Positions 1 through 21,929 of a stretch of DNA of 64,000 nt are shown here, in pieces. Location: assembly GCA_963691705.1 (NCBI GenBank), contig OY829539.1, positions 9,178,501 through 9,242,500 on the forward strand, in the 5' to 3' direction. The notes beneath the pieces were generated by a model, which saw nothing but the letters and a program-made list of their open reading frames with translations, ran no database searches and was not told the origin of the DNA. How positions within the stretch are numbered: position 1 is the stretch's first letter; each line of letters opens with the position of its first letter. Source of the DNA: Viola odorata. Lineage: Eukaryota; Streptophyta; Magnoliopsida; Malpighiales; Violaceae. The position numbers and the translations under genes are program-made.

Positions 1-18
1 CATGATTAAATGCGATGC
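1..18 (-). repeat. First bases of the Athila 3' LTR
   Basis: Bases 1-18 are identical to 20951-20968, the outer edge of the complete Athila LTR. On the minus strand this is the start of the LTR, and the rest of the 3' LTR would lie left of the window. The next base (19) differs from the LTR's terminal base at 20969, so the join is one base short of a clean LTR start. Confidence 0.7.
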
Positions 19-1350: not shown

Positions 1351-1359
1351 CTGTGGTGC

Positions 1360-2487: not shown

Positions 2488-2496
2488 TTCTTTAGA

Positions 2497-3246
2497 CTAA
2501 ATTTTCTCTAATTCTTTGTCTGTTTTCGCCCCTTCCCTTTCTGATAATACACTCCCACTTCTCAAACTCATTGCACTGACATTGTGGGCTGGGTTATTCA
2601 CCGTGGTGGGAGGTAATTTACCTTGGTTAGCTATCTGAGTGATCTGCTTCTGGAGCTCTACCACGCTGGTTTGTGTCGACTGCATATGATTTTTCTGCAG
2701 CTCTATCATGGTTTTGAGTGTATCCTCTACGGATGGGCCAGTAAGCTGCAAAGGTCGAGGAGCAGGCGGTAGCTGGGCCAAAGGAGCTTGACCGGGAGCT
2801 TGGCCTAGACTCAGATTTGGAGGGCGTGGTACGAAATGTTGGAAATTGATAGGAGGTTGTTGTTGCTGCTGAGGTACACCTTGATTCTGGTTTGGAGGGA
2901 GTGGATCCCTCCACCTGAAGTTTGGGTGTGCCCTCCATGAATATTGATTACTTCCTTGAGGGAAGCTTTGCATGCTTCCTTGATTCTGTTGGTAGGCTGC
3001 ATTAACCTGACTTACATAATCTGGATGTTGCACCATATAACAGTTATTGGTCTGATGGTCTTGCTGCTGGCATATTCCGCACACTGAAGCTATCTGCTCT
3101 TGATTCTGATTTCCTGAAGGCATTGATCCTGAAATATTAACAGAAATGTTTTTAACCATATCAGTTAAATCATTAAGCTTTTGTTCAACATTAATTGTAT
3201 TTAGGGAAGAAGGTAAAGTATTTCTATCCGAAATGGTGTTATTCTG
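2497..3246 (-). pseudogene. Athila gag, C-terminal part (left of the nested insertion)
   Basis: The minus-strand frame running away from the Tat insertion reads Gln/Asn/Pro-rich sequence with a CGICQQQDHQTNNC zinc-knuckle-like motif near residue 70 of the fragment and a long QQQQQPPINFQ-type tail. It continues the frame that stops at 18554-18558 on the other side of the Tat element, because both sides carry the duplicated TTCTG. The ORF overlaps a few bases of Tat LTR only because the frame stays open there. Confidence 0.85.
3242..3246. repeat. Target site duplication of the Tat element, left copy (TTCTG)
   Basis: TTCTG stands immediately before the 5' LTR and again immediately after the 3' LTR at 18554-18558. 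A 5-bp duplication is the usual Ty3-integrase footprint. The perfect match shows that the element is still at its original insertion site. Confidence 0.95.
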
Positions 3247-3816
3247 TGATAACAATTCACCCAAAAGAAGGGGTATTTTCGTCTATCACCCGGGGGAAGA
3301 GACACCGCCACTGTTTCGCACCACCACGGTAGGGACAAGATTGCTACCTTCCCCAAAGGCTAACGCTACGAGGGCTAACGATGCCCTACCGGCTCCTCTC
3401 ACGGACCTCGTGGATGGCTCAAGGAGTTATCTCACCCCCGGAGGAAACCACGCGTCAGGGTTAACGCTCCGGCCAGTATCCTACCGTGGCAATACCTACC
3501 TACACACCTACCGCCAAGGTAGCGTATCACGATAAGGGCGAACCACAGACCCTAACACGAGCGATAGCTCCATACTCATTTACTTGGGCAGGAACGCCCT
3601 ATTCTTCTATAAATACCTCCCCTACAAAGGAGGCAGGTAAGCGGACTTGACTGGCCAAAACTCTGCCAATTTCAGTACACATACTGACTTAAGCATCGGA
3701 GTGTTTCCGCCGGAGACCCCCTCCGGCGCATTGCAGGTACTGTGGACCGTCGCGCACACTGACCTGAGAGGAGCTGCTCCACCATACATCCTTCGGCAAA
3801 AGACAAATTATTATCA
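3247..3816 (+). repeat. 5' LTR of the Tat element
   Basis: It spans 570 bp from TGATAACA to AATTATTATCA, with short inverted ends TGATAA/TTATCA. It aligns without gaps to 17984-18553 at a constant offset of 14737. By eye about 8 positions differ, all transitions. A TATAAATA box lies at 3608-3615. The unit contains GCTAACG twice close together (about 3358-3385). Confidence 0.95.
3608..3615 (+). promoter_or_regulatory. TATA box of the 5' LTR
   Basis: TATAAATA lies 209 bases before the LTR end and is conserved at the same offset in the 3' LTR (18345-18352). It is the only well-formed TATA box in the LTR. Transcription would start about 30 bases downstream, near 3640. Confidence 0.65.
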
Positions 3817-3819
3817 AAT

Positions 3820-3837
3820 TGGTGCTCTCGTTGAGAG
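3820..3837 (+). other. Candidate primer binding site of the Tat element
   Basis: TGGTGCTCTCGTTGAGAG starts three bases after the LTR end. PBSs begin with TGG because tRNAs end in CCA. I could not match it to a particular tRNA. It differs from the TGGCGTC... sites of the Athila copies in this window. Confidence 0.5.
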
Positions 3838-3901
3838 TATTGGTTCTATTAAGTGAGCATCCTTAGTAACCAAGCTCCTCCTCCCCGAAGCTAGAAGGAT
3901 T

Positions 3902-5245
3902 ATGGCCTCAGAGTCAGATCCGGCGCTGTCCCGAACTTCCAACATCTCATACAACACCCGCAGACGCCTGTTTCCCTTCGCTACCTCTGATGCCCCCACC
4001 CTAGGGCAAGACGTCACTGCAGGAGAATTAGATCTTCCTCCCGGGTCAAGTTCGGAAGAAGTTACATTCCAGATTTGCTCTCCCTTCTCCCATATAGCAG
4101 GAACCAGTCATCCTACCCCCCAAGCGGGGAGATCTATGATAGGAGAAGCAGACAACCCTTTCGTGAACTCAATAGCAGCTCTCCAAGCTCAACTGGATCA
4201 GCTGACAGAGATGGCTGCTGGATTTACTCCTCATGCCTCAAGACCTGGTGTGTCCTCCCAAGTAGTTTTCACTCCATCCATTGTCAACGAATGACCCTTA
4301 TCGCCCCAACAATCTAGGGCACTCCCGTCTTCCTTACCTTTCCCTTTGGCCCCCATGAACGTCCCACCATTCACGCGCGGACCTGCCGACCATTCTGGAC
4401 AATACAGGGGAGGAATCTCTATCCCCGAAGCAGTCCGCCAGCGTGACGAGTATAGAGAACACTGGGATGATCGACGGGGGGATATAGTGAGAGATCCATC
4501 TCCTAGATACAGCGAGAGATCTAGCAGCAGAAGTCGACGAGCTCGAACTCCAAGGAGCCGCAGTCGTTCTCCTAGGAGACATCAGGAATATGACCCTCAG
4601 AATCCCAGATACGACGCTGAAATTCCACATCAGCGTCAGCCTCGCAGGATCCCCGATGCTAACGTGGGTCATCCGTTCAGTTACCGTGTCAGGCACCACA
4701 TAGTCCATCGACATGTGAAACTCTCAGCAGAGTCATATGATGGCACGAAAGATCCCATTTCTCACCTCAATAGGGTGAAGGATTTCGTGCAATTCCAAAC
4801 GCGCAGTGATGCGGCATTGTGCCAAATCTTCGTAATGACGCTGTCAGGAGTGGCACGTCTATGGTTCGAGGGGCTTCCCGCCGGGTCTATCGATAATTTT
4901 TCTCAGTTGGAAGAAAAATTCAAAAGTCGGTTTAGCACGGCTATTCCTATCAGAAAGTCAACAGCTGCGCTGTTCGATATCCATCGGAAACCACAGGAAT
5001 CGTTGAACGACTTTTTAGGTCGATTTGATCTTGAAATGTCCCTAACGCCAGGGGTCACTATCGATTTCGCGATTGAGGCCTTGAAACGCAATTGTCGATA
5101 CAGTAAATTGAAAGATACGCTAACGGTGGACCCCCCAATGGCCTTGGATGCGTTGAGGCTGAAAGTGCATAACTATGCGAGAATTGAAGAGGAAGAAAAT
5201 AGATTGGATCCAAGGCATGCCAACGGACCCATATGTGGCCCCTAA
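3902..5245 (+). pseudogene. gag: Tat element gag (one in-frame stop)
   Basis: The frame starts at ATG 3902 and is open except for TGA at 4292-4294, then runs to 5245. The second part carries Arg/Ser-rich sequence and then the retrotransposon gag capsid-like domain, with the conserved blocks RVKDFVQFQT, MTLSGVARLWFEGL and QLEEKFKSRF (residues about 140-190 of the 4346-start part). The zinc-knuckle part that should end gag (CKFHKVKGHSTDVC, 5544-5585) lies in the pol frame. The native protein therefore probably continued into that frame and a one-base shift has occurred in the 5175-5245 overlap. Gag would form the virus-like particle in the cytoplasm. Confidence 0.85.
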
Positions 5246-8200
5246 CGTCCTGAACAGCAATGCCCCTGACGCTAAACCCACCGACGATCACGGGCAGCGG
5301 AAAGAACATAACACCAAAACCCCTGGCCGGCAGAGAGGCAACTTCTCGAAAGGAAGACCCGGAGGGTCCCCCACTCGGAAGCAAACAGACCCGCCAAAGG
5401 GCCGGATATACGATCCTGACCTCCCATCTCTCATACTCCCAAGGGCGGAGATCTTAGCAATAGTCCAACAGAGAAATTTGCCCATCCGTTACCCAGCTCC
5501 CGTGAAACCAGGAGTAATCATGGGAGAAAGAGAAAATGCATACTGCAAATTCCATAAGGTCAAGGGACATTCAACAGATGTATGCAGAGAGTTAAAATTG
5601 GCTATAGAGCGATTGGTCGAGGAGGGCTACCTTGGGGAATTTGCCACAAAGGGAAGGGAAGGGGCCAGAAACAACCCAACTAGAAATACAACTGATCACG
5701 GGCAAGCGCCCTCGCGCGCCACAGGAGCTAACGCAGTTCCCCTCGGACCAAATAGAGAAGCGCTCGCTATCGATAGCGACCAAATGCCCATGATAAATAT
5801 CATTACGGGGGGAGCACCTTATTGTAAGGAAATTATGCCACAAACGCCCAACCCTGGAGAAAAGCGCAAACGGGAAAGCGCGCAAATGAAAATCGAGGCG
5901 ATAAGTGCCTTAGACAGAATGATATTGTCTTTCTCAAAGGAAGACGAAAAAGGCATCGTCTTCCCGCATAATGACGCGATGGTTGTAACGCCCGTCATTG
6001 GAAGTCATGGGATAAGAATGACCCTTGTCGATAATGGGAGTGCAGTGAATCTATTTTCATTGGAAGCGTACAACTTGATGAAACGACCTGACGGTGAACT
6101 ATCGTCTTGCACGAGGCCAATTATTGGGATTGATGGAGTATCGATTCCGGTAGCCGGAATAACATCCCTGCCGGTGTACTTCCGGGAAGACACATCCAAA
6201 CGCTCCGAAGAGTTATTATTTCTGGTCGTAGACCTAACGTTACCGTATAATTCCATTTTGGGGCAACCATTCCTTAATCGTTTTGGAGTAGTCATATCTC
6301 AAAAACACCAGCGGATGAAATATCCCTCATGGGACGGCGTGGTCTCAATCAAAGGGGACCAAAAGCTGGCAGCCGAATGCTACTTACTTATGACTCAAAG
6401 GAGCTGTGACCGCTACGTTTGCGTGGCAGACGACCCTTTCGATGATAAAGAAGAAAAGCGCACTCAGCCGCTAGATCAAATGGTATCAATCCCTATCGGT
6501 AAGGATAGTGAAACGAATCTCTTAGCCAGTGAAAAACTAAGCTTTGAAGAGAATGCACAATTAATCCGGCTGTTGAGGAAATGCAAGGGAGAATTTGCGT
6601 GGAAGCCAGCATACATGCCTGAAATCTCTCGGGAGGTTGCGGAACACCGGCTGAACGTTAGTCCTGACGCCAAGCCTGTTCAACAAAGGCGACGTGCTTT
6701 TTCATCGGAAAAGATAGCAGCCATCGAAAAGGAGTTGCTAAAGCTCACAGAGGCGGGGTTCATTCGAGAAGTCCAATACCCGACCTGGCTAGCTAATCCT
6801 GTGTTAGTCCCAAAGCCTAACGGGGACTGGCGCATGTGCATCGACTTTACTGACCTAAATAATGCATGTCCCAAGGACTGCTATCCCCTTCCGCGAATAG
6901 ATCAGTTAGTCGATCAAACCGCTGGGTATGCTTATCTAAGCTCCCTAGATGCAAATTCCGGATATCACCAAATCCCTATGGCCGTAGAGGACGAAGAAAA
7001 AACTGCCTTCATCACTCCTAGGGCTACATACTGCTATACCGCAATGCCGTTTAGGCTAAAGAATGTCGGTGCAACATTTCAGCGTATGACAAACAAAGTT
7101 TTTGAAAATCAAATCGGGAGAAATGTAGAGGCCTACAGAGACGACATCTTGATTAAAAGTCGGAGTTTCAGAGAACACCTCGCTGACTTGAAAGAAGTTT
7201 TCAATGTGATGAGAAAGCACAAGATGAAGCTAAACCCGCGGAAGTGCATGTTTGCATTCCAAACGGGAAAATTCTTGGGCTATGTGGTCAGCCGGAAGGG
7301 CATCCAACCGAACCCGTCAAAGATAAAAGCCATCCAGGATATGATATCCCCGCGGACTGTCAAAGAGATACAGAAGTTAACCGGGCGCATCATCGCGTTG
7401 GGGCGATTCATATCTAAGCAAGGCGAGAGATGTTTGCCTTTCTTCAAAGTCATCCGAAACAAGGCTCCTTTCGGATGGACAGAGGAATGTGAGAAAGCGT
7501 TTGCAGGACTAAAAGCTTACCTATCATCAGATTTAGTGCTGACGAGGCCTGAACCCGGCGATGAACTATATTTATATTTGGGAATAGCTGACGAGGTAGT
7601 CAGCGCCGTCCTTGTGCGAAGTGAAGGGCACGTGTATCGTCCTGTATTCTTCGTGAGTCATATATTGAAAGATGCCGAACTGCGATACGCTCTTATCGAG
7701 AAGATAACACTCGCTCTAGTACAGGCCACGCGAAAGATGGATCGATACTTCCAAGCCCACCCCGTCACTGTACTTACGGATCAGCCGTTGAGAAGAATCT
7801 TCAGAAAACCTGAATCTTCAGGAAGAATGCTAATTTGGGCTATCGAGCTCGAACAATACGGGCTGCAATACAAAGCTAGACCAGCCGTTAAGGCCCAAGC
7901 GTTAGCTAACTTCATAGCTGAGTGCACGTTCACAAAGGACACAAAAATAGATCTGTTAGAGGAAGAAGCAGAAAGTCCATGCCTACCGTCTCCGGAGACA
8001 TATACAGATACGTGGGTCATCCACGTAGATGGAGCAAAAAATCAAGAATTAGCTGGCGCAGGAGTTTTCTTAGTTGGACCAAACGGTCTGGAGATGCGAT
8101 ACGCCATCAGAATCCTACAGCCATTGTCCAACAATGCGGCTGAATATGAAGCGCTGCTGGCAGGACTCAGAATTGGAAACAGTTTCTCCATCGGAGCTAC

Positions 8201-9773
8201 CCCCGGTATGGAGAAGGAAGACAGAACACGTTTAAAGATCCGAGGAGATTCCAAGCTAATAATGGATCAGGTTCTGGGGAACTCCCAAGCCAGAGAACCC
8301 ATCATGGCCCAATACTTAGCCAAAGGGAAGCATGAGCTGTCAGAGATACAGGAAAAAGGCACCCTGGTCACCTTTGAGCACATTCCTAGAGAAAACAATG
8401 AAGAGGCTGATAGTATCGCCAAGATGGCAGCCAATCCGGAAGCCTCAATACCCAGTGACGTGCGCTATGGAGAACTGCCTACACCTTCTTTCATGGAAGA
8501 GCAGGTATCGCTCTGTGTGCAAGAAATGGAAAATGATTGGAGGATCCCAGTGATAGAATATCTGAAACATGATAAACTACCGGGGGACCAGACAGAGAGA
8601 AAGAAAGTCCTAAAACGGGCAGCACGATGCACATATTATAACGGAGAGTTAATACGCAGATGTTTCTCCCATCCGGCCGCTAAATGCATAACGGAGCAAG
8701 AAGGCTTACATGTGTTACGTGGAATTCACGAAGGGATATGTGGCATGCACATTGCTAGCGGTACTCTGGCAGCCCAAGTCTTTCTGTCGGGATTTTACTG
8801 GCCCACCATTCGACGAGATTGTCATAACTTCGTGAAAACCTGTCAGAAATGCCAGGAATATGCCAAGATTCCTCGAAAGCCGGCTGTACCAATTTCAGAA
8901 ATAGTTGCTCCCTGCCCATTTGCAAAATGGGGGATTGACATCCTGGGCCCGTTTCCAAAGGCCAGGTCTCAGTTAAAATTTGTGGTCGTAGCGGTAGACT
9001 ACTTCACAAAGTGGGCCGAAGTTGAGGCGTTAGCTACCATCACCACCGAAAAAATTTAGCGTTTCTTCAAACACCAAGTCATCATGCGATTTGGAGTACC
9101 ACGCGTGCTAGTTAGCGACAACGGGACACAATTTACAAGCCAGTTCTTCAGGGATCGATGTGCAGAATTCCAGATAGAGCAAAGATTCTCCTCTGTGGCA
9201 CATCCCCAAACCAATGGCCAGGCGGAAGTAACTAACCGCAGCATCCTTAGTGGCATCAAAAGAAACTTGGAAGGTTCCAAGAAGAAATGGCCAGACGAAT
9301 TGCCATACGTGCTATGGGCCTACCGCATGACTGTCAAGGCCAGCACGGGAGAGACCCCGTTCGCGTTAGCATTCGAAACCGAGGCTGTCACACCAGTCGA
9401 GATTGGCATGATGAGCCTCCGGGTGGCTCACTTCAAAGAAGAAAACAACGAAGAAAGGTTACGAGCTAACCTCGATACTCTACCAGAAACACACGAGGAA
9501 ACCCTCCTGAAAACCCTGCACTACAAGAGGAAAATGGCACAATATCACAACCGGCAAGTGAGGGAGCGATTGCTCAAAACCGGAGATTTAGTGCTCAGAG
9601 ACAGGCGGGCAGCAGGACAACGTATGGGAAAACTCAGTCCAAACTGGGATGGACCGTATCGTGTCACCCGCATTGTGGGAAAAGGAGCATACCATCTGGA
9701 AACGCTCGAGGGAACGCCCCTACAGAACTCTTGGAACATTGCTCGGCTGAGGTTATACCACGCCAGGAGCTAA
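5175..9773 (+). pseudogene. pol: Tat element pol: protease, RT, RNase H, second RNase H, integrase
   Basis: The frame is open for 1294 codons to TAG at 9057-9059 and continues in the same frame from 9060 to 9773. The order is gag zinc knuckle (about 5544), aspartic protease (VDNGSAV, about 6027), RT (about 6660-7380), RNase H of the RT (to about 7800), and a second RNase H with HVDGAKNQ, NNAAEYEALLAGL and GDSKLIMDQ (about 8010-8430). The integrase follows with its HHCC zinc finger (about 8730-8870), a core with GIDILGP and SDNGTQF, and its C-terminal domain. The stop falls between the first two catalytic Asp residues of integrase. The RT active site reads YRDD where YVDD or YIDD is usual, and MPFRLKN replaces the usual MPFGLKN. 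This copy is therefore probably inactive. Confidence 0.9.
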
Positions 9774-9863
9774 TCGGGTAACATCAAAGTTATTCTAATA
9801 AATGAATATTGAGATATTCACTGTGCGTTTGCTACTGGTAATATGCAGGTAGCGAAGAATGCC

Positions 9864-10344
9864 AGGAGTGAAAATCCTATCCTTGTGATGGCTGGTCCTG
9901 ATCAAACAGCTCACTAAGATGAGGCACGCCCTGGCATAACAAGGCGTTTGGGAGTGAAAATCCTATCCTTGTGGTAACCGTGCTCACATAGACGGCCCAT
10001 TAAGACTAGGCACGACCCCAAACGGCTTCCCGGAGTGAAAATCCTATCCTTGCGGCAACCGTGCTCACATAGACGGCCAGTTAAGATGAGGCACGCCCCG
10101 GAATCCTTGGGAGTGAAATCCTATTCTTATGGTAACCCCATAAGGAGAGGCACGCCCCAAGGAGAGACCAACTCCGTCCTGGAAGTGAAAATCCTATCCT
10201 TGTGGTAACCGTGCTCACATAGACGACCCATTGAGACGAGGCACGATTCCACGGACGTGAGGTACAACGCTTGGGGGTGAAAAGTCCTATCCTTGTGATG
10301 GCTGGTCCTGATCAGACAGCTCACTAAGACGAGGCACTCCCCAA
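9864..10344 (+). repeat. Six imperfect tandem units of about 50-90 bp after pol
   Basis: The core GTGAAAATCCTATCCTTGTG begins units at about 9868, 9954, 10034, 10112 (degenerate), 10185 and 10279. Most units then carry either GGTAACCGTGCTCACATAGA or GATGGCTGGTCCTGATCA, and end in GAGGCACGCCCC-like sequence. Two unit subtypes are interspersed. No coding potential is visible. The array lies directly behind the pol stop in the 3' untranslated part of the sense transcript. Confidence 0.85.
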
Positions 10345-10575
10345 AGCCAATCTGTGGCGAAAGGAAACAAAGGCATCCCAACTAGTAGCCGCGCGGTTGA
10401 TACCCGGTGAAGCGATGTTGGAGCCAATCTGTGGCGAAAGGAAACAAAGGCATCCCAACTAGTAGTCGCGCGGTTGATACCCGGTGAAGCGATGTTGGAG
10501 CCAATCTGTGGCGAAAAGAAACAAAAGAAATCCTAACTAGTAGTCACGCGGTTGATACCCGGTGAAACGATGATG
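10345..10575 (+). repeat. Three tandem copies of a 77-bp unit
   Basis: Units start at 10345, 10422 and 10499, each with AGCCAATCTGTGGCGAAA, then CAACTAGTAG and GCGGTTGATACCCGGTGAA. The first two copies are almost identical and the third has several substitutions. The array follows the six-unit array without a gap. Such arrays between pol and the 3' LTR are common in Tat elements and can seed satellites. Confidence 0.9.
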
Positions 10576-10962
10576 GAGAGGTGTCCATACTGCAACAACA
10601 ACGTTGAGACAGACATAAAGCCCCCTCTGGCAACAAGGGACGGCAGGAAGATGAGTGCAGCAGATGCGGAAGCAACGCCGATTTACTCTCAAAAATGCTA
10701 TCGGCGGATATAATGGTAATGCTACTCGAATGCAGCTGATGAAAAGCAAACGGGATACAACACGAAACTATGTGTCTATGGAAACCTAACGTCAAACGTC
10801 CTATGCGGACAAGAGATCAAACGGTATTATGAAGGAAAGCAGAAAAAGAACTTCTATCCAAAAAGAGTGGATTAACCCAGTCAAGGCCGACATTGTTTAA
10901 AGTACAAAATATGGACGGGCCCGTCAGCCACAAAAATGTAAAGCATCTAAACAACAAAAAGT
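10576..10962. other. Spacer between tandem repeats and antisense gene B
   Basis: I see no gene, hairpin or repeat here. It would hold the 3' end of antisense gene B (minus) and the trailer of the sense transcript (plus). Confidence 0.5.
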
Positions 10963-13251
10963 CTAAAGATTGGGCGGCGCGTTGACCCCTCCTTGCTGAG
11001 CAGCCTTCCACTGGTAGAAACCGCTATCAGTAATGGTTGAGGCTCTCTTGTCAAAATACGCAGAGAGATCGTCAATACGGAGCTCCTCAACTCCATAATG
11101 ATGCATCACGGCTTCCGACATAATTCCCCCACCCTACTCTAAGTACCAACGACTCTTCTCAGCGTTAAGAGAAAAATCGGCAGACAGCTCAGCGTTTCTC
11201 TGTCTCTCCAAACGCAGACTTTTCTCCTCCTGAGAGAGGCGTATGGCCAGATCGACACGTTGTCGCTTCTCCTCTTCCAAAGCCAACTTAGCAGTCTCTA
11301 GCTCTTGCTTAACAACGATAGCCTCTCCCCGGGCGGCCTCCACACCTTCGTTGGCAGCATTGAGGGCATTTTCAAGACGTTGTCGCTCTTCCAGCAGCCT
11401 GTTTATCTCTCCTTGCCCGTTAGCTACAACTCTGGCATTCTCCTCATCCATATAGTGAAGATGGCAAAGCATAGAAAACGCCTGAGAGCGAAGGAAATTG
11501 ATGCGCCCCTGCTCGCCCCGAGCCACAAAGGCATCCCTCTCTCTTGGAAGGGACAAAATCTCTGCCACCAGATAAGCGGTAGAGGAGAGCACGGTATCAT
11601 GATCAGCATCGGCAGGAAACTGCAGAATACTGTCCCTAAAGGAGCGCAAGCTGACGTGGTGAGTTGGCAGGAGAGGAGGCTCGTATGGAGAAATACCAGC
11701 CATTAAGGCAGGAGCGGGGCCATCCCTCGCAATAGTTGGGTGAGGCATTGGAACAAAGAACAACGCACCAGGAGAAGCTGGCCGGCTAGTGGGGCCTTCC
11801 GCGTTAGGCATTGAGACCTCATTACCTCCGGGCACCTCAGGATTAAGGGCATCAGAATCATAGCCCGTCGGGGTGTGCGAAGAATGGATCGGAGAACCAG
11901 GAGGCACATGGGGTTGACCGTCAAAATCAACAGGTTCAGATTGATCAGCAGACGCACCCTCGCCCCCAGGGACACTCGAACTACGATTGGCGGCCGAGGA
12001 AGAAGGGCTATTCTGAAGATCATAGCGAGCCTTCTTCTGACGCTCGCGAAGGACATCTGCAATAGCCATATCTCCCTGGGAGGTAGAGGGGGCAGAAGCA
12101 GCAACAACTTCCTAAAATAACGCAGAACGTGATAAGAAAATTGTGTAAAAAGAAAGACAAAGTTTTAAAAATAAGAAAAATGCACACCTGAGTGGTGGAG
12201 GACACAAGAGGAATCCCAACAGGAATCGGATCAACCGTAGCCTCTGAAGAAACAACAGTCTGGGACGAAACGGATGGGGCAGCACGTGCTTTCCTAGGTC
12301 GTTTCTGTCTTACAACCCGAGTGCCCGTAACGTTAGCGGTAGCAGTGGCCTCCCCTTCCTCGGCGTTAGCAGCAGCAGCAGCCCTAGCTTCAGCGGCAGC
12401 TTTCTTTTTCGCCTCCTGTTTCCTTCTCCTCCGGAAATACTCGGGCTCCCAACCAGGCGGAGTCACTGCACAGTCACAAAACGTTAGTGTTAGTACTTCT
12501 TGACAACGCAAAAGAAAAAGGTCAAACGCTCACCCTTCTTGCACTGTTCCACGGGCAACCCGTTGGCCACTTTTCGGGCATCAACACTAAAATCAAATTG
12601 AAGCAGCGTCTTCAACCAGCCATCCTCCGGGTCGGAAAGGGGTTTCTGATGACCCCAAGCCCCATCTTTAATTGTTTCGTTGAAGCCAGCCCTCCACAAC
12701 GGCTCAAGCAGATCAACAATAAAAAATTCCTCTTTCCAGTGAGGAATAGAAGACTCAATGCCCATAAGTTTCCAGGTAAAGGGCTTCAAAGAACCGTCTT
12801 CGTAGCGAGGCGATATCGATATCACCCCTTTACGGGAATACAATTGGAAAATGTCATGAAGCAACGCTAAAGTGGGAGATTCTATTCCCTTAAAACGGCA
12901 CAGTGCGGCAAAAGCACTAACAACGCAAATTGCGTTAGGACTCAACTGAGCCGGAGCCAAATCAGAATCAGTCAACAACAATTTTACGAGCGGGTCAAGA
13001 GGGAGACGAAACCCATGATCGAAGAGCTTAGCATACAACATTCTACTATTTCCGGGCAAAATGTTGTTCAGTCGAAGCGATTCAGAAGCAGAATGCACGG
13101 GATATTCCGTGGGAAATCGCGCAGAAAACCCAGCAAGTCTACGGTTAATTAAGGGCAGTGTGTACAGAGAAGTGGGAGTAGTATCAATTACTTCTTCCCC
13201 GGAGGACCTTTGAGGGTCTCCTTCTTCAGAGGATTTTTTAGTTCTAGCCAT
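10963..13251 (-). pseudogene. Antisense gene B: Transposase_28-like domain plus coiled coil
   Basis: The start is ATG at 13251 (MARTKKSSEEG). The exons are 13251-12534, 12465-12188 and 12111-11134, with GT-AG introns of 68 and 76 bases that keep one frame of 657 codons. Residues about 30-200 resemble the Pfam Transposase_28 ('putative gypsy type transposon') family, with LYAKLFDHGFRLPLDPLVK, LAPAQLSPNA and LLHDIFQLY. An Ala/Lys-rich middle follows, and the C-terminal 110 residues are a strong heptad coiled coil (NARVV...RLLEERQRLENAL). The TAG at 11134-11136 is followed in the same frame by 56 more sensible codons to a TAG at 10963-10965, so the stop is probably a recent nonsense change. Homology to gene A runs through the whole length. 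The function is unknown. Confidence 0.75.
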
Positions 13252-13357
13252 GGCTAACAAGGAAGAAACAAAGAGAAAAGAAAAAGGACGTGTACCTTAT
13301 ACCTTCGTGAAAGAGAATGCGAGGAGTCTTGAACCGGAAAGAGAGAGCGACGCAAAG

Positions 13358-13365
13358 TATTTATC
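13358..13365 (-). promoter_or_regulatory. TATA-like box of antisense gene B
   Basis: On the minus strand the bases read GATAAATA, about 107 bases upstream of the ATG at 13251. That allows a start site near 13330 and a leader of about 80 bases. Confidence 0.4.
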
Positions 13366-13878
13366 CAAAGACGCAATAGCGTATAAGGGAAAGATGGAAA
13401 AAGAAAAAGGGGGTAGAAGAAACAACAGATATAACCCTGAAAGGGCGACCAGTCAGCAGCAGACACATGGCGAAGTAGCGCGTCATAAAGTAAGGCACGC
13501 GCCAGAAGGTGCAAATTTGAAATAAGAACGAAACGCTGCTGCATTCGCAACTCCCTAGGAGACGCCTGCTCCAAACGCCTCTCTGTGGAAGGACACGTGT
13601 CTTCTTTCATCATTACCCTTCAAGTCGCATTAAATGAGGGACAGGGGGATTGATTAAAAAACATAAAAAGTAGCGCTGGCCTCGCCAAACGGCGCGATGA
13701 TACAAAGAAGATAAATAAGGACTAACGGTAATATCATGATGAATCATACAGTACGACAAAGGATACAAAGCGTTAGCATTATTACAAGAGAAACAATGTT
13801 CGAATGGTTTTCAAGAAATAACAAAAGAGGAGACAACAACATGAAAAACAAGGAAAGGCCCAGGCACCATCGCTAGCG
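13366..13878. other. Spacer between antisense genes B and A
   Basis: No reading frame of the family is visible. It would contain the distal promoter of gene B and the 3' end of gene A. It includes one CGTTAGC motif (about 13769). Confidence 0.5.
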
Positions 13879-15998
13879 TTAGGTTCTCTCCCTCGAAGGG
13901 TCAGAAGAACCGTTGCCACCTTTGCTAATCTCACCCATCACGATAGATATGTAATCAGCTATCTGGGCCGGATCTGAAGGGTTACCTTTGAAACGAGCCG
14001 CAAATCCAGAAACGAAGGCCTCCAGAACCCTCTTTCTCCATAACTCTTCCTTTAATGGCGCCCGAGCAGACTCCTCATCTCGAGCAAGTATCTCTTCGCG
14101 GAGAAAGAGATTTTTCTTCTTTTCTAGCGCCAATTCCGCCTCCAGAACCTCTACCTTAGCTTTCCCGATAGATTTTTCTCTGTCCAATTCTATTTGGGAC
14201 GATTCGCAAAGACGCGTCAGCGACCTAGAGTGCTCCACCGCCTTTTCAAGCTGCACCCTCGCAACACACAATGCGCTGGAAAAATTATGTGACTCGCGAT
14301 CGTGAATTTCGAATTGATAATTCAGATGACGGAAGAAGTCCAGAGAATCATTCAGAACATGGCGAAAGCGTGCCGAGGGAGGGAGTTGAAGAAATTCCTC
14401 TTTCTCCTTTTTGGAACTCAGCATCTCTCTTATCAAGGGTGCAGTAAACTCATCTCGAGAAAAAGGCTGGGGAACCCCGACAGCGCGAAGGGCATCAAAG
14501 CAAAACCCTGCAAGATTCATACGGTAGGTCGGGACCCCGTTAGGACCAAGATTGATCGAGGGAGGTGGAGGAGAGCCCTGAGAAAAAGTACTCTTGAAAG
14601 GAGTAAAAAACAGCTGTGGAGTAACCATAGGCGGTAGCTCAGCAGTCGAATCCGCCACAGGAGGTGTGACCACTACGTCAGGAATACAATGATCAATCGG
14701 AGAATCGGGAGCGTTAGATATGGGAGGAGGACATTCCATAGGTAGGCCCTCTCCCTCAGTAGAACAAGTTTTTTCCAACGCCTCAGCGGCTTCCGTTGGC
14801 TGAGAGGCGCCTGCCTCTGACGAAACAGCAGGCGTAGAAACAGTTGCCACATCCACAGGAGATGTCCCGGTAGCTTGTCCGCTAGGGGCCACTCGAAGTT
14901 TTTTCCGACGCTGGGAAGCAGCAAGGGAAGAAGCGTGGCAAAGGTCTGACTTAACATCCGCATCCTCGTCATCGCTAGTAATTACCGTCGTTGCGACAGG
15001 GCTGGAGTCCGTCCTCTTGCGGCGCTCCGGTAGCCAATTTTCCACAAAACGAGAAGTTCGCACAGAGCTAACGGGCCTTCGCCCTCCCCGGGCAATCGTC
15101 TTAGTTCTCTTCCTCAGAGGAGGAATGCCACCCCGACTAGAGCCCTCGGCCGAAGGCGAGGCCGGTAAAGTTTGAAGCGGCGTTACATTTAGAGGAGTAC
15201 CAGTGTCACCTGGGAATAAACCGTTAGCTTCTTATAGCAAACAAAGCGTGCGAGGATCAAAGAAAAGAAAATATGGAAAGAAATAGGCTCACCCATAATG
15301 CACTCTTCCAAAAGTTTGAACAGAGCAAAGGCACGAATGCGGTAGTGGGTATTCTTGTCTAACAAAGCGTTAGCCTGGTCCAACTCAGTTCTGGACAAAA
15401 TCGCGGGATTCGTCCAAACGGGGCCTATCAGTTCCTGATTGAAATTGATACGCCACAAACGTGACGGTAGCTCCAAAATAAAGAAGTTGCTCTTCCAATC
15501 AGCTACACCCTTCTTGAAGCCGTGAAAACGTTGCCAAAACGACTGCACGAGCGCATCATCCCACCGGGGAGTAATCTCGATTAAACAATTGTGGCAAATC
15601 ATGCTAAAGAATTTGCGAAACAAAGTGATAGATGGGGTAAAAATGTTCTTCAACTCGCAAGCGCGAAGAAAAGCATAAACCGCACACCAAGAGGAAGGAG
15701 TTATCTGGGCAGGATTAAGGCTATACTCCCGCAGCAGAGTTAGTATCGACTCATGAACGGGAAAGCAGAAACCATAAAGGAACATTTTAAAATAAAGAAG
15801 CCTACTGTGGCCCCACCCTGGATTATGAAGCCGCATATCACTTCCGGGAATAGAAGGCTCATGCCCAGGAGGAAAGGTAATACCATGTTCCTCCAATTCG
15901 GCTTTCAGAACCACATCGCAGGTAAAAATGCTTGGTGATTGGGCGACCTCGGGATCCATGGGCCTAGAGATAATCTGGCGAGGTCTATTCCTAGCCAT
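13879..15998 (-). CDS. Antisense gene A: Transposase_28-like domain plus coiled coil, intact
   Basis: The start is ATG at 15998 (MARNRPRQ), matching the MAR start of gene B. Exon 1 is 15998-15293 and exon 2 is 15209-13879, with an 83-base intron (GTGAGCC ... TTCCCAG). The joined frame is uninterrupted for 678 residues. Residues about 25-230 are Transposase_28-like (LLYFKMFLYGFCFPVHESI, LNPAQITPSSW, ITLFRKFFSM). The middle is Ser/Pro-rich. The C-terminal 200 residues hold a block shared with gene B (EFTAPLIREML...FRHLNYQ) and then a coiled coil (LEKAVEHSRSLTRL to EEILARDEES). It lies antisense to the retrotransposon. I do not know its function. DNA or RNA binding and a role in regulating the element are only guesses. 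Confidence 0.75.
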
Positions 15999-16460
15999 AG
16001 CAAACCAACAAAAAAGGAAATCTGAGAAGGGACGAATTGATACCTTAAAGGAGAAGAATCGCAGAGAAATCGGCGGACAGTGACGAGCGGCCGAAAAGGT
16101 ATTCGGAGAAGAAGACGAAGGAAGACAAAAAGGAAAATTCGAAGTGAGGGCAAAAGTTTTGAGAAATTGGAGAATGACCCTTCTTAAAGGATAAAAATGC
16201 CACCGCATTAATTGAGTCACCAATCGGGCGAAGAGGCGTGTAAAAGAAGTTGGCCACGTGGAAGCGCATTAAAGAAATTTGAAAAAAAAAAGAGAAGTTA
16301 TTCATCGAGACTCCCCGAAAGGGCGACAATGTTGACCCAGTCAGAGTAACCGCGAAGCGATTGCCTCAGTCAGGCCAACCGCTTGCGTTAGCTATCACCA
16401 AGAACCAGCAGGCTAACGGAAATAACGACAAAAAAGGAAAGGCAGAAAGCATCATTTTAT

Positions 16461-16918
16461 TCATAAAACGCCAATAAGCGGGTACAACGCAAAATGGCTA
16501 ATCCTCATCAGGCCAGTAAATGCCATGGTGATAAACCCCGTCATCATCAAGGAATGGCATCTTCCCGTTAGCATTCGGGACAGGCTGGTCTGCCTCCCTT
16601 TCTGGGCAGGACCCTGACGGGCATGACTTTTCTTTGACACTCGAATATGCCAACCCCCACCAGCACAGGTGGGAAAAGCCTCATTCAGCGAACAATCAGG
16701 GGAAGGAAAGCGTTTGCCACCCTCTTGGACAGCAGAACCAGAAGAAGTCAAAGTCGCAAAGGGCGTCTTGGAAGTCCGTTTCCCCTGCCTCTTACGACCC
16801 TTTCGGCGGACCGGAGGCCTCCATGGTGGTGAAGGAGGGGGATGATCTGAGTCCGGTGAAGTCGGGGGAGTCGGCAAGGAGTCGCGATCCATGGAACTCA
16901 AGAAATAAAAATCTGCCA
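16461..16918 (-). CDS. Antisense ORF C, short proline-rich, possibly frameshifted
   Basis: The likely start is ATG 16918 (MADFYFLSS) or ATG 16892 (MDRDSLPTPPTSP). The open frame goes on to 16461 through Pro-, Ser- and basic-rich sequence. In another frame the last 100 or so bases (about 16620-16498) read an acidic/aromatic ending (MPFLDDDGVYHHGIYWPDED), more protein-like than the end of the listed frame. A frameshift or a missed small intron is therefore likely. A clear TATA box precedes it. No family recognised. Confidence 0.4.
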
Positions 16919-16985
16919 TGTGACCTGCAAAAGCAAAAAAGAAGGAAAAGGATGAAGATGAACAGGAAAAGGAAACCAAACTCCC

Positions 16986-16993
16986 TTATATAG
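16986..16993 (-). promoter_or_regulatory. TATA box of antisense ORF C
   Basis: The minus strand reads CTATATAAGGG around these bases, 68 bases upstream of the ATG at 16918. It is a textbook plant TATA box at a usable distance. Confidence 0.55.
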
Positions 16994-17406
16994 CCGAGTA
17001 AGCACTTCAATCCCTGAAAAATCAATTAAGACGCTTGGGAAAAATAACTGCAATTGTAGAATCCGATCCGCCACAGGCACACCTGCTCGTTGAACGCACC
17101 AATCAAAGGGCACCAAAGAACCGCCCAACCACCTGCCACTGAAACGACGGCCCTGTAACAGTCAAGACAGATCATTTATTGCTAATTCCCGGAACACGAC
17201 CACTGCAATACAATGTCCCGAGGAAGACCCATTTTCAGTTGGGCTCATGACAAATATTTCCAACCAATAAAGCAAGCAACCAAGCAAGAAAAAGAGCAGA
17301 CTTGGGAAAAAGCAGAAACAACTATTTATTTATGGCCAGGTGGCCTTAGCATTCAAATATGTACAAGAAACATAAGAAAAACAACGAGAAGAAGCGAAGC
17401 CAGTGG
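16994..17406. other. Spacer between antisense ORFs C and D
   Basis: No coding potential is convincing here. It contains one copy of a 21-base sequence (17230-17250) that reappears against the 3' LTR. Confidence 0.5.
17230..17250. repeat. 21-bp repeat, distal copy (CATTTTCAGTTGGGCT core)
   Basis: The copy differs at one base from 17966-17986, which overlaps the first bases of the 3' LTR. The spacing is 736 bases. See the finding on the missing polypurine tract. Confidence 0.8.
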
Positions 17407-17790
17407 TCAGATATTGGACCCCGCATCATCTTCCCCTAGCACAACGGGAACCTCCCTTAAAGCGTCAACGACGGAGGTCAGTTCGACAAAGCAGGCTCTC
17501 ATGCCCTTCAAGCAGTAGGCCAGCAGATCTTTCCTCTGCTGCAGCATCGAGGCCACCACATCAAGGTGGGCACTGACAGTGGCCAGTTTCGCCAAACTCT
17601 CTAGGGGACTAAAATCCTCCAGAGTTATTCCCAGCTGCCTAGACAAAATAGGGGTTAGCACCCCCTGCAACTCCAGGACATCCTCGGAGGTCTTGGTGAT
17701 CATCCTCTCCAGGAAGCCGATATCGCCCTCAGTAAGATTCTTCAGGGTCAGAGTTTTAGAGATCAGGAAATTGCGAGTCAGTTCATCCAT
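17407..17790 (-). CDS. Antisense ORF D, 127-residue helical protein
   Basis: The frame from ATG 17790 (MDELTRNFLISKTL) is open for 127 codons. The protein is rich in Leu, Glu and Val and looks helical (LTEGDIGFLERMITK, SVVDALREVPVVLGED). No domain is recognised. A TATA-like box lies 61 bases upstream. It is the antisense ORF closest to the 3' LTR. Confidence 0.5.
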   Translation of the reverse strand: MDELTRNFLISKTLTLKNLTEGDIGFLERMITKTSEDVLELQGVLTPILSRQLGITLEDFSPLESLAKLATVSAHLDVVASMLQQRKDLLAYCLKGMRACFVELTSVVDALREVPVVLGEDDAGSNI

Positions 17791-17850
17791 GGCGAAATAT
17801 GAAAAGAAAGAACGTGAAAATGCGAAGAAATTGGCGCAGAGGAACCTCTG

Positions 17851-17857
17851 ATTTATA
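17851..17857 (-). promoter_or_regulatory. TATA box of antisense ORF D
   Basis: The minus strand reads CTATAAATCAG here, about 61 bases upstream of ATG 17790, a short but workable leader. Confidence 0.5.
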
Positions 17858-17983
17858 GATCCTGACACAAAACCGTCAGGACCATCTTCTGAGGCAAAAC
17901 TGCCCCGGTTTTAGAGGGACCCTTCATAAGAGAAGGAACGTTAGCCCTTGGTAAACACTCGGGCTCATTTTCAGTTGGGCTTA

Positions 17984-18553
17984 TGATAACAATTCACCCA
18001 AAAGAAGGGGTATTTTCGTCTATCACTCGGGGGAAGAGACACCGCCACTGTTTCGCACCACCACGGTAGGGACAAGATTGCTACCTTCCCCAAAGGCTAA
18101 CGCTACGAGGGCTAACGATGCCCTACCGGCTCCTCTCACGGACCTCGTGGATGGCTCAAGGAGTTATCTCACCCCCAGAGGAAACCACGCGTCAGGGTTA
18201 ACACTCCGGCCAGTATCCTACCGTGGCAATACCTACCTACACACCTACCGCCAAGGTAGCGTATCACGATAAGGGCGAACCACAGACCCTAACGCGAGCG
18301 ATAACTCCATACTCATTTACTTGGGCAGGAACGCCCCATTCTTCTATAAATACCTCCCCCACAAAGGAGGCAGGTAAGCGGACTTGACTGGCCAAAACTC
18401 TGCCAATTTCAGTACACATACTGACTTAAGCATCGGAGTGTTTCCGCCGGAGACCCCCTTCGGCGCATTGCAGGTACTGTGGACCGTCGCGCACACTGAC
18501 CTGAGAGGAGCTGCTCCACCATACATCCTTCGGCAAAAGACAAATTATTATCA
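17984..18553 (+). repeat. 3' LTR of the Tat element
   Basis: It is gapless against the 5' LTR with about 8 transitions. It ends TTATCA and is followed by the TTCTG duplication. TATAAATA lies at 18345-18352. Confidence 0.95.
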
Positions 18554-18558
18554 TTCTG
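18554..18558. repeat. Target site duplication of the Tat element, right copy
   Basis: TTCTG, identical to 3242-3246. Confidence 0.95.
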
Positions 18559-18981
18559 GCAATTGTCTGCCAATGTCTGGAGTAACATTTTGGCTCTAGT
18601 GACCGTCAGATCTTGTAATGCTCCACTAGCTGCGGAATCCACTTTTTCTTTGCAACTTTGGAGCATCCCATCATAGAAATATTGTATCATAGTGTTGTCT
18701 GCTACTCCGTGAGTGGGACAAACTTCTTGCAAATCACGGAACCTCTGATGATATTCACTGAAGCTCTCGCCGCTTCGTTGTTGAATTGCGGCCATATCTT
18801 TCCTAGCTATACCTGTCTTCGTTGCATTCCAATACTTATTAAGGAACATTGTAGACATCTCTGCCCACGTGTTGATGGTGTTATGGGGCAAACTATAAAA
18901 CCAGTTTTGAGCAGCCCCTTCTAGAGAGCTTGGAAAGGCCTTTAGCTTTGCCCTTTCCATGTTCACAGCAGTTGGTTTCAT
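18554..18981 (-). pseudogene. Athila gag, capsid part (right of the nested insertion)
   Basis: The minus-strand frame holds the Athila gag core (KLKAFPSSLEGAAQNWFYSL, TWAEMSTMFLNKYW, QRSGESFSEYHQRFRDL, IQYFYDGM). It runs into the Tat LTR at 18553 and continues at 3246 on the other side. Upstream at about 18990 a stop splits it from the gag start. Confidence 0.9.
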
Positions 18982-19382
18982 AATGTCACACTAAACATGG
19001 AGATTCCTCAGGTGCTTGAATGGATTTTCATTGGAATGGTCGTAGAATTTGGGAAGGTTGGCCACCATGTTGGTCTTTATGGACCAATCATTTACCACAG
19101 CAGGTAGGTTGATACAAGAAAAGGTCTCCTGTTCTGCTGTTCTGTTCAGCTCCCTCATTGTCGGTTCTGGTCCATGGCTAGAACGAATGGTTCGTCTTGG
19201 TCAAGGTGTTGGCCAAGATCGAGATCTGAACTGTAAGTTGTTTCGGAACTGGAGGTTTCCGATTCACTTTCTTCCTGGGCTGCTCTTTGTCGAGCTTGCC
19301 TCCTAAGTTGTGCTTCGGTCCTTGTGAGATTGGGATTGCAAGGTAACAAATCTTGTTCTCTGCTAGAGGACCTGGTCATCAA
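18982..19382 (-). pseudogene. Athila gag, N-terminal part (broken)
   Basis: Starting at 19382 (MTRSSSREQ) it reads LTRTEAQLRRQARQRAAQEE, an acidic Ser-rich stretch, then a stop at about 19155. A second frame carries VVNDWSIKTNMVANLPKFYD and leads to the capsid part, with a further stop near 18992. At least two lesions therefore break gag. A related N-terminus is readable at 23013-23280. Confidence 0.75.
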
Positions 19383-19426
19383 CTGTCATGAAATATAATA
19401 AAAGAAACTACAAATACCGTTAGAAA

Positions 19427-19444
19427 TCCCCGGCAACGACGCCA
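19427..19444 (-). other. Primer binding site of the Athila element (tRNA-Asp type)
   Basis: On the minus strand it reads TGGCGTCGTTGCCGGGGA, five bases after the LTR. It differs by one base from the tRNA-Asp-complementary TGGCGCCGTTGCCGGGGA used by many Athila elements. Confidence 0.85.
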
Positions 19445-19449
19445 AAATT

Positions 19450-20969
19450 TGATCGCGTGTCAAACACGTCAAATATAAGTGTATAATAGTTATGGAAATG
19501 GGGGTAGAAATACAACTTATCACTATCTACAAAGACTTATAGATCACGGTAAGAGGATCGGTCCACAGAGATCTCTAGGGAAACGTAGTTCCTGGTTGAC
19601 TTCCTCGTCACCGATTTTGGTTGGGTGAATCTGAAATTAAAGACGAAAACAAAGGAAATAAGACAGTTCAAAGTATTCTTGGTCAAAGGCTTGGTCAAGA
19701 CAGGGGTCAAGATTATGAGATATCAAATAAAAGGGAATCCTTGGTAAGGGCGATGTGAAAGCTTTTGTCCTTATGATTCGATCATTGATTCAAGGGTGTT
19801 TGGCCCTAAATTCATAGTACTGCTATAGAGTGGAGGTTCTCCTGTTTACTCCTGCTTCCCTCCTCTTCAAATCATCCGGCGGGTGCTCCCTTTCCTGATG
19901 ATCCTAGCCAAGGGACACCTTGCTGGTTAAAGGGTTTATCCGTTTGACTGCTGTCTTGAGTGGTTGTTTGCTTCATCAATATCATAGGGGAAGACAATAC
20001 CTAGTCAAGCTGTTTCCCTATGGAAACCCTAGGTTGTCAATCTGGTCTTGGTCTAGATCGTTTATTCCTTCTAGTCTAGTGCGAGACTAGTTACCTACTT
20101 GGCCTAGCCGACGGGTGCTCCCTTTCCTTCTAGGTTGGTTACAACTCTTCTCTACTAGGGTACAAGAATGATCAGATCTTGTCTCTAGTGAGTTAGCGGT
20201 TAAACTCAAGGAATAAACGAATACGAATTATAAAGACTTTTAAGTACGGTTTGATCTCACGAATGTGAATAAGGACACAACTCCTCAACCCTTACCAAGA
20301 ATATATGTTTAGCTAGACGTACTCATAGATGGAAGAATGGAAATATTTACTTGCATAAATAAAACTGAATCCGAGAATTCCACAATAGGAAAATTTCGGA
20401 GCACGAAAGTAATTTAATGTTGAAAACGGGAAAAGAAAAGAGATCGGGGAGAGTTGGAAAGGCAAGACAAAATCCGGCTAAATACTAGCTAAAGCCTCTT
20501 GTCCTTTTCCAACTCTAACTCTACAAACATATCTAAAAGGATAAAGATAGTAATATTTTCTATGGGAAATAAATCACAACAAAAGAGGGAGATCCTAAAT
20601 AGGATTCTACATAAAATTGTCTTCAGATCCCTCTAGAGTTGCTGGATGGCTATGACTTGACAGCTCGCAAGGTCCAGGTGAAACGCAGCCCAAAAGTCTT
20701 GCTGATGTTGTCGCTCGAGATGGCTTGTCGTGATATGAGTCTTGGCCAAGCTTGCGGCCAAGACGGACTGGTAATCGTTCCTTGCTATGCGAATGGGTCT
20801 TGGCCAAGATCTAGGCCAAGAAGATCTGGTAATCAACTCCAGCGCTTCACTGAAATGCTCCGCTTCAGAATCAGAACTGCCAAAGTATGGGGAAAGAAAG
20901 ATAAATCAGTAGATTTTCTGCCCAAACAACATGTAAATGGACAATCAAAACATGATTAAATGCGATGCA
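19450..20969 (-). repeat. 5' LTR of the Athila element, complete (1520 bp)
   Basis: The plus-strand edges are TGATCGCG and GCGATGCA, so on the minus strand it starts TGCATCGC and ends GCGATCA. A primer binding site follows inward. It includes the phrase GGTAAGAGGATCGGTCCAC, whose complement is the usual end-of-LTR phrase of Athila-like elements. The right edge abuts gag of a third element, and its first 18 bases recur at 1-18. Confidence 0.8.
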
Positions 20970-21843
20970 ATCACTCAATTTGCGCTCTTCCTAGTGCAAT
21001 CTCTAGCTCCTTATAATACTCATTCATAGATCGGCTCCCTTGGGATATGGCTTGTAAGCACTGATAGAGATCCCTTTGGAAGTAGGTCTGGACGAAGCGC
21101 CTCTTCATCTCTCGCTTCATCTCTTCCCATGTCCGAACCGATGGAGCGTTTGCTCGGCGCTTCAATTTGTGAAGCTGATCCCACCAATGTACGGCGTAAC
21201 CATTGAACTCTACTGCTTCTAAGCGAACCTTCTTCTCCTCGGAGTAATTATGGAGTCGAAAGATTGACTTGACTCTTTGTTCCCAAGTGAAGTAGGCGTC
21301 GGGATCATCTGCACCATCAAACGGTGGAATTTTGAGCTTGATGCTATTGAGATTAGCATCGATCCACTCTTCGTCTCTAGGCCACCGCTCATTAGCTCAG
21401 TCGCGCATAAAGAACCCAGGGTCATCTTCATCATACGCATCATTCCAATGCATGCGGGGTGCTTGGTGCCACTGTTCATCATCCTCGGGCTCGCGCTCCA
21501 TTCGCCTTTGCGCTCGACGTGCTTGGTGCTCCGCATTGATGTGTTGGCCGTGTGTGGGCGTGCGCCACTGCTCCTCATTATTCCCAAGCAATACAAAATG
21601 ACGATCTTCATTCCCTTCACCTACAAAACCTTCGGGTAAATTAGCAAATAAACCCGACTTGTTTTCCTTCTTGTCCATGTCATAGAGGTGAGCTGCGCTT
21701 TGTGGATTAAGGACTTGGGTCATGTGAGGCGTGGCCGCTGCCTTCTTCTTCTCATCCGATGGCTCCTTCAACTTAGGACTGTTGCATACTTCCATCTTGT
21801 CCATTCGGACCAAAACTTGGAGAAGGAGGTCATAGATATGCAT
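20970..21843 (-). pseudogene. Gag of a third Ty3 element, cut by the Athila insertion
   Basis: The minus-strand frame from 21843 (MHIYDLLLQVLVRMDK) continues in one frame to 20971, broken by a single TGA at 21397-21399. The gag capsid-domain blocks are clear: LKIPPFDGADDPDAYFTWEQ, HNYSEEKKVRLEAVEF, HWWDQLHKLKRRA, TWEEMKREMKRRFVQTYFQR and LQAISQGSRSMNEYYKELEI. The style fits a chromovirus-type or related Ty3 element rather than Athila. The remainder of gag and pol would lie left of the Athila element, outside the window. Confidence 0.8.
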
Positions 21844-21929
21844 GTCGATCTCTTCGGTCTTGCCTTATGTTTCCTTGATACTCTTGTTTCCTGAATCTTG
21901 AGATATTATTTTCTTTTTTCTTTTTTTTT

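Follow-up and report, generated by a model that had tools for sequence, protein, structure and literature searches.

The Retand lineage of the Tat elements, within the Ty3/gypsy long terminal repeat (LTR) retrotransposons, is exemplified by Retand of Silene, Grande of maize with its gene23, and RIRE2 of rice. Antisense open reading frames (ORFs) with a Transposase_28 domain (PF04195, hereafter TRP28) occur in 97% of recently active Retand clusters, and elements with two or more antisense ORFs have been described before, a count of those of at least 600 bp giving 104 in 63 clusters, 57 of them bearing TRP28 (PMC11963269). A promoter of its own has been reported for gene23 of Grande (PMC7264820), and for the antisense TRP28 ORFs as a class DNA binding is predicted and the function is left open (PMC11963269, PMC7264820, PMC6317226); the main text of PMC11963269 makes no mention of introns, paralogues or two TRP28 genes. 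Here we describe an element of this type at positions 3247-18553 of a 64,000-nucleotide stretch of Viola odorata DNA (GenBank assembly GCA_963691705.1, contig OY829539.1, positions 9,178,501 to 9,242,500 of the forward strand), the whole of which is called the window below. The element shares with those named above the marks of the lineage, antisense TRP28 ORFs between pol and the 3' LTR, and tandem arrays near pol, and it is unlike known Retand in having four antisense genes, two ancient TRP28 paralogues with a shared intron, conserved TATA boxes, and a short family-specific word.

Two further systems invite comparison. The VANC proteins of VANDAL transposons are, like the proteins considered here, a protein family encoded by transposable elements and diverging together with a short word enriched in its own element (PMC5735166, PMC10398659), and unpublished work suggests coevolution of VANC structure and target DNA (PMC12859917). 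As in our case, unrelated elements may share such a word (AT9TSD1), VANC6 words having been found also in an unrelated element (PMC5735166). The VANC words lie in non-coding tandem repeats of a DNA transposon, whereas ours are single, dispersed, found in coding sequence too, and belong to a retrotransposon; binding of ours is proposed. HBZ of HTLV-1 (cited in PMC11963269 and PMC7264820) is likewise encoded antisense near the 3' end of its retroelement. In HTLV the antisense promoter is part of the 3' LTR (PMC7264820); the TATA boxes predicted for our genes D, C and A are internal to the element.

The antisense gene block and its relatives

An earlier annotation made from the letters alone (the sequence-only reading) had proposed four minus-strand ORFs opposite gag-pol in a Tat element, and they are found where it placed them:

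10963..13251, minus strand: gene A, TRP28 type A; exons 12534-13251, 12188-12465 and 10963-12111
13879..15998, minus strand: gene B, TRP28 type B, 678 aa; exons 15293-15998 and 13879-15209, intron 15210-15292 (83 nt, GT-AG)
16464..16919, minus strand: gene C, 152-aa frame, proline-rich then basic, with a conserved N-terminus and an acidic C-terminus; TATA-like box at 16992
17407..17790, minus strand: gene D, of 127 aa and without a Pfam domain; a TATA box stands at 17857 and AATAAA at 17330

PF04195 lies above its cut-off in both A and B (2.9e-07 and 6.3e-09), and both proteins have the predicted 650-680 residues and short GT-AG introns. Spliced across introns 12466-12533 (68 nt) and 12112-12187 (76 nt), A runs to 657 aa up to an in-frame TAG at 11134-11136, beyond which the frame is open to a stop ending at 10963; the TAG is missing from the single other alignable copy (L059), where no stop interrupts the frame before the one at 10963, L060 having been left out of this comparison for want of a match to A's end. 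A and B are paralogues, with 29% identity over exon 1 and 26% over 199 columns in the C-terminal part, and the first intron of A and the intron of B stand at the same place and in the same phase, just after the TRP28 domain. By eye, a GTGAG-/GTAAG-type donor with an AG acceptor is present at this position in 15 of 16 genes inspected, a tally that takes in a second look at the window's B through copies L002-L008; the set comprised B of the window, L039, L041, L042, L043, L048 and L050, A of the window, L041, L043, L048 and L050, and the single genes of L040, L046 and L047. A of L039 has a weaker donor at this position, and among window-family copies the B intron begins with GTGAGC in all eight, the window's included and L002-L008 all agreeing. 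Ahead of the acceptor, A's first intron holds TACTAAC-(A/G)CTAACGTT, recognisable also in L039, L041, L043, L048 and L050 despite their differing dispersed words, and probably a branch point followed by a fixed word. Searches with B for protein relatives (the exon-1 ORF, then the whole protein) and scans of viral contigs with the B ORF and pol found none; we take retroviral antisense genes such as HBZ to be unrelated in sequence to A-D.

The genome searched comprised 699 Mb, in which B exon 1 recurs at 93-100% identity in at least 117 places, 93 of them without a stop (a hand count, the window's included, from a list ranked by score that thereby favours intact copies). A genome search with PF04195, in which 150 of 11,413 first-look candidates were scored, gave 30 loci of 3.2 kb each, and for ten of these (L039-L048), chosen after the 3.2-kb word ranking, longer stretches were fetched. 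The gene order whose conservation the sequence-only reading had put forward as a check is complete, as D-C-B-A, in L039, L041 and L043, the minus-strand frames being retained in these relatives apart from one stop in A of L041. All four genes are present in L048, with C truncated and, as cut, three stops in B and four in A; L042 has D, the N-terminus of C, and B, a second TRP28 domain not being found. L050, an 8-kb stretch taken at random as a control, turned out to be a Retand bearing D, B and A (nine stops in B and one in A, as cut) and no recognised C. L040 is a Retand by its pol (66-70% identity) with one TRP28 gene, D not being found, and L045, L046 and L047 have one TRP28 gene each. By tblastn, C was matched solely in L039 and in L044, where both the outer element and the window-family copy nested in it gave a match; for L041, L042, L043 and L048 the gene was read from ORF lists, not from an alignment, and recognised by a common start (MAD..., PPTPPTSPD), with a similar acidic end in L041 and L043. 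Identity to the window's genes is 60% (D), 42% (C), 71% (B) and 73% (A) in L039, and 60% (D), 53-55% (B) and 46% (A) in L041 and L043; at the nucleotide level the antisense blocks of different families are 60-73% identical.

In a tree of 17 TRP28 domains, all six A sequences fall in a single clade (100/100) and all seven B sequences in another (100/99), the two being broadly parallel inside, with L050 placed differently in each; A and B are two ancient sister clades. Ratios of nonsynonymous to synonymous divergence (dN/dS), computed by NG86 with a script of our own, are 0.03-0.24 for D (15 of 15 pairs), 0.06-0.26 for B exon 1 (11 of 15 pairs, four being saturated), 0.07-0.29 for A exon 1 (8 of 10 pairs, two saturated) and 0.27 for B exon 2 (the single pair computed). 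Many between-family dS values are near saturation, and the safest pairs are L041-L043 and L041-L042; the first of these gives 0.03 (D), 0.09 (B exon 1) and 0.13 (A exon 1), and the window against L039 gives 0.24, 0.12 and 0.07. Among eight window-family copies (28 pairs) the corresponding polymorphism ratio (pN/pS) of B exon 1 is 0.25. By these sequence comparisons A, B and D are under purifying selection.

The two shorter ORFs of the sequence-only reading exist, and C is not intact in this copy, being frameshifted near 16641; it is a single 140-aa frame in four of seven other window-family copies (L002, L003, L006, L008), as it is in the one that L044 contains, and is likewise disturbed in L004, L005 and L007. 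Length is no guide, an ORF of at least 128 aa arising in 47% of 200 shuffles of 9774-17983; by codon usage D's frame is the best of six, and C's is best only against A/B usage, and weakly. That C and D are real genes is settled by their conservation between families. The regions upstream of C (17230-17267) and D (17966-18001) share a 38-nt similarity scoring above all 300 shuffles, the only one to emerge when the four upstream regions were compared in all six pairs (A/B does not exceed chance). As the copy at D crosses the edge of the 3' LTR, the one at C may descend from an earlier LTR junction, with growth of the block by duplication.

Separate promotion of the genes, also part of the sequence-only reading, finds sequence-level support for three of them: TATAAAT lies 56-73 nt upstream of D in 7/7 families, TATATAA or TATTTAA 73-83 nt upstream of C in 6/6, and GGTTATA 170-180 nt upstream of A in 5/6, the window's A having, by eye, GGTTATAT at about that position. 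For B the candidate is weak (TATAAGG at 194-195 nt upstream in 3/7 families). AATAAA occurs downstream of C and of D; B has AATAAT only, and downstream of A none of the polyadenylation patterns sought was found.

The element that carries this block has LTRs that start with TG and end with CA, and the following further features:

3242..3246: target-site duplication TTCTG, left copy
3247..3816, plus strand: 5' LTR, 570 bp; six CTAMCG words in the unique 3' (U3) region
4346..5245, plus strand: gag ORF, Retrotrans_gag match
5175..9059, plus strand: pol ORF with reverse transcriptase (RT), RNase H, RVT_3 (a second RNase H-like domain) and the start of integrase; in-frame stop 9057-9059
9060..9773, plus strand: integrase remainder, continuing the pol frame beyond the in-frame stop
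9865..10578: tandem repeats in two arrays, of periods 81 and 77, separating pol from the antisense block
17984..18553, plus strand: 3' LTR, 98.6% identical to the 5' LTR (8 differences); seven CTAMCG words
18554..18558: target-site duplication TTCTG, right copy

A protease region lies on the plus strand between gag and RT. A second RNase H (aRH) between RNase H and integrase is a criterion of the lineage, common also to Ogre (PMC6317226); RVT_3, which we read as aRH, occupies pol residues 951-1085, after RT_RNaseH (796-895) and before Integrase_H2C2 (1180-1229). Another mark of Retand, an antisense TRP28 ORF between pol and the 3' LTR, is present twice over, as A and B. The pol-3' LTR region, with the minus-strand order LTR-D-C-B-A-pol, measures 8,210 bp (9774-17983), against a maximum of 6,556-6,566 bp given in PMC11963269, a difference that is descriptive and not defining. 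The copy in the window is a decayed one: pol has a stop, A a TAG and C a frameshift.

The dispersed word

The hexamer CTAACG, which the sequence-only reading does not mention, recurs visibly in the block, and in a ranking of all 2080 hexamers it is the most enriched, with CTACCG third.

3327..17944: 49 dispersed CTAMCG words, 40 of them as SCTAMCGB, over one LTR, gag-pol, introns, intergenic stretches and antisense genes

In the element without its 3' LTR, CTAACG occurs 32 times against 4.5 expected (p 3e-17; 100 shuffles reach only 1e-5), and SCTAMCGB occurs 40 times in 14.7 kb of the element as against twice in the other 48.7 kb of the window. The sites lie on both strands and in U3, coding and non-coding parts, while the tandem arrays (9865-10578) have no CTAMCG word at all; the longest stretches without one are 16567-17938, which takes in most of C and D, and 9365-10785 around the arrays, the longest of them being within what chance allows (p 0.31). 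Since the 40-nt flanks of the sites are as dissimilar as random ones, the sites were not copied from one another. Codon shuffles (3000 trials) never reach the observed count in pol or B, and they give p 0.011 for gag, p 0.09 for the integrase remainder, and for D none seen against 0.1 expected; they also fail to explain the family words in L039, L040 and L043. A preference is visible among one-base neighbours, CTAATG (0 against 4.7 expected) and CTAACC (3 against 4.5) not being raised, but CAAACG (21 against 8.9) and CTGACG (15 against 5.8) are. We also considered the word as an RNA signal, from its bias of 22 sense to 3 antisense over the block, and rejected this, as codon shuffles yield a similar ratio in coding parts.

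Other families have words of their own. The top hexamer of each 10-kb stretch (observed/expected) is CTAACG in the window (24/3.0), CTACCG in L039 (15/1.7), TACCGG in L040 (22/4.0), and TATCGC in L041 (17/3.6), L042 (17/2.8) and L043 (26/4.0); a TANCG core, which 32 of the 2080 hexamers contain, is thus present in all six (the window and five others, L041-L043 being one group) and also in the top hexamer of L050. Variants of the core in other Retand families are TATCGC, TAMCGG and ATAACG. With tandem arrays masked, a TANCG word ranks first in 7 of 11 TRP28-bearing stretches. No TANCG word is in the top four of any of 13 analysable stretches without detected TRP28 (L051-L057 and six window pieces), nor of the outer 2,750 nt of L044; L044 was dropped from the ranking on account of its nested window-family copy, and L049 as wholly tandem repeat. 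In a cross table whose words were picked from the same data, so that its p-values are descriptive, the window, L039-L043, L048 and L050 are enriched for their own variants (L050 for three), and L045, L046 and host genes for none (at p<1e-3 for the two loci). Where the window and L039 can be aligned over the block (60% identity), they have 9 of 25 sites in common and differ at the other 16, the shared fraction for hexamers in general being 8.6%, which we take as conservation plus turnover; shared sites number 5 of 12 for L041-L043 (19.7% of all hexamers), 3 of 6 for L041-L042 (17.3%) and 2 of 7 for L043-L042 (14.4%). Taken together, these counts present the word as enriched, dispersed, family-specific and, as far as sequence can tell, under constraint at the nucleotide level.

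What may read the word

We propose that the block is a conserved antisense gene island and that A and/or B bind the word, mark the element as self, and counter silencing or control transcription, a tentative reading to which we give somewhat less than an even chance. D, C, B and A, presumably expressed in this species, would be transcribed from their own promoters against gag-pol, and their introns would persist through each round of retrotransposition: on established splicing, GT-AG introns that lie antisense to the genomic RNA cannot be spliced from it and so would not be lost. A and/or B would then bind the short word (core TANCG, here SCTAMCGB) over U3, genes and introns; the bound word would mark the element as self and counter silencing or control transcription, as VANC does for VANDAL, with C and D as helpers. 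The parts of this proposal are not equally firm. That the four antisense genes are real is, from their conservation, close to certain, and the dispersed word is very probably functional; that A or B reads it is a balanced question that we would answer, by a little, in the negative, and an anti-silencing outcome is possible and rather doubtful. The regulation of the element by these proteins, which the sequence-only reading supposed, may at least now be framed around a concrete candidate target. In sunflower Retand, local CG methylation drops while CHG methylation stays high, and the same source raises, without settling it, the question whether additional ORFs in certain LTR lineages influence methylation (PMC12844716).

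Several observations weigh against this proposal. Gene A exceeds codon shuffles weakly (p 0.016), the coding segments of L041 have no TATCGC, and those of L042 give p 0.02; in L039, L041 and L050 the words are not concentrated on the LTR side. Of the 30 loci of 3.2 kb, only 8 have a TANCG word at the head of the ranking and 16 have one among the top three (hand count), and the longer stretches were selected after this ranking had been seen; with arrays masked the best-placed TANCG word is second in L048, third in L045, and outside the top four in L046 and L047. Window-family copies keep word sites less than other hexamers in six of seven pairs (0.53-0.82 against 0.74-0.90), the seventh keeping them better (0.94 against 0.90), and the lower retention is likely due to CpG decay of silenced copies. 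Words also occur apart from TRP28: TCTTRGC is dispersed in L055 and in the gypsy element around the window's element, with no TRP28 seen in either, and L052, with no visible TRP28, carries AWCGGC (39 against 6 expected), shared with L047 (58 against 10), which has a TRP28 gene and no blastn match to L052; a TRP28 gene predicted beside L052 was absent from the fetched flank, and that prediction failed. On the protein side, a fold prediction from two sequences was too poor to use (predicted confidence score, pLDDT, 36.8), and a PDB search with a 10-row TRP28 profile found no solved relative at E<=1. Nor is DUF1985 seen in A or B, which is a difference from VANC: exon 1 gave PF04195 alone at E<=1, and those of the later exons that were scanned had no DUF1985. 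DUF1985 is the VANC domain; a genome search with PF09331 (DUF1985) gave no match, and its control gave none either.

The strongest rival, which we think quite possible though not probable, accepts the genes and assigns the word to a host factor, such as a MYB-like or chromatin protein, with the TRP28 proteins acting otherwise, for example in nuclear import of the pre-integration complex. CTAMC resembles plant MYB AC elements, and the words in gypsy elements without visible TRP28, with AWCGGC common to the unrelated L047 and L052, fit a host reader; yet CTAACC and CTAACT, to be expected of an AC element, are not enriched, the word extends beyond U3 into coding exons and introns, and its variant differs between families within the same host nucleus. 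The antisense protein of Grande is nuclear, and roles of this kind have been proposed (PMC7264820). As an unrelated element shares the VANC6 words, word sharing does not decide the matter, but the reader may well be a host protein.

An improbable alternative is that antisense transcription itself is the function, the D-A transcripts pairing with genomic RNA and tuning silencing via small RNAs while the proteins matter little. Such a function has been proposed for elements of this kind (PMC7264820), but it is strained by conserved introns and by dN/dS well below 1 for A, B and D, which show that the proteins are kept. No more credit is due to the idea that the word arose as a side effect of composition, codon usage, the content of CpG or the copying of repeats: CTAMCG contains a CpG that other window sequence may have lost with age, some words of L045-L047 lie in tandem arrays, and the excess over codon shuffles is weak or absent in A and in the integrase remainder. 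But overall a strong excess stays against Markov models of order 2 and 3 and against shuffles of the element and of its codons, and flanking contexts are as unlike as random ones; these controls largely refute the idea. Chance ORFs or a nested foreign insertion can be set aside, for although ORFs of at least 128 aa are common in shuffles (47%), the same genes stand in the same order in families 60-73% identical at the nucleotide level.

Surroundings and significance

The element was inserted within another gypsy element on the minus strand, of which RT (1329-28) and protease lie to the left and gag to the right. That surrounding element (window 1-3246 and 18554-22000) has a dispersed, partly palindromic word, TCTTGGCCAAGA, with CTTGGCC 20 times against 1.2 expected; L055, a gypsy element with gag, RT, RNase H and integrase and no second RNase H seen, has a palindromic word, TCTTAGCTAAGA, close to it (TCTTAGC 14 against 1.2 expected). 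At L044 a window-family copy apparently interrupts gene B in a Retand of a different family (D 60%, B 56%). Elsewhere in the window are a 1,3-beta-glucan (callose) synthase gene (32384-37759), a single open frame of 1792 codons, and within that frame a match to the Rfam snoRNA snoJ33 (86 bits; 35400-35480).

A literature search, with reading confined to the papers cited here, found no description of dispersed family-specific words in Retand or of a TRP28 binding site. The conserved four-gene island together with a candidate target word makes the function of the antisense TRP28 ORFs directly testable. A generalisation that we hold only speculatively is that plant Ty3/gypsy elements carry a private address word, particular to lineage and family and spread over coding and non-coding sequence alike, read by their own accessory proteins (TRP28 A/B in Retand), which would distinguish self from non-self and lift silencing from the whole element. 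If this is true, we know of no earlier sequence-specific anti-silencing code in a retrotransposon, and this one would be operated by an antisense island with introns; abundant plant retrotransposons would use an addressable anti-silencing system of their own, and the dispersed words would allow readers to be matched to elements genome-wide.

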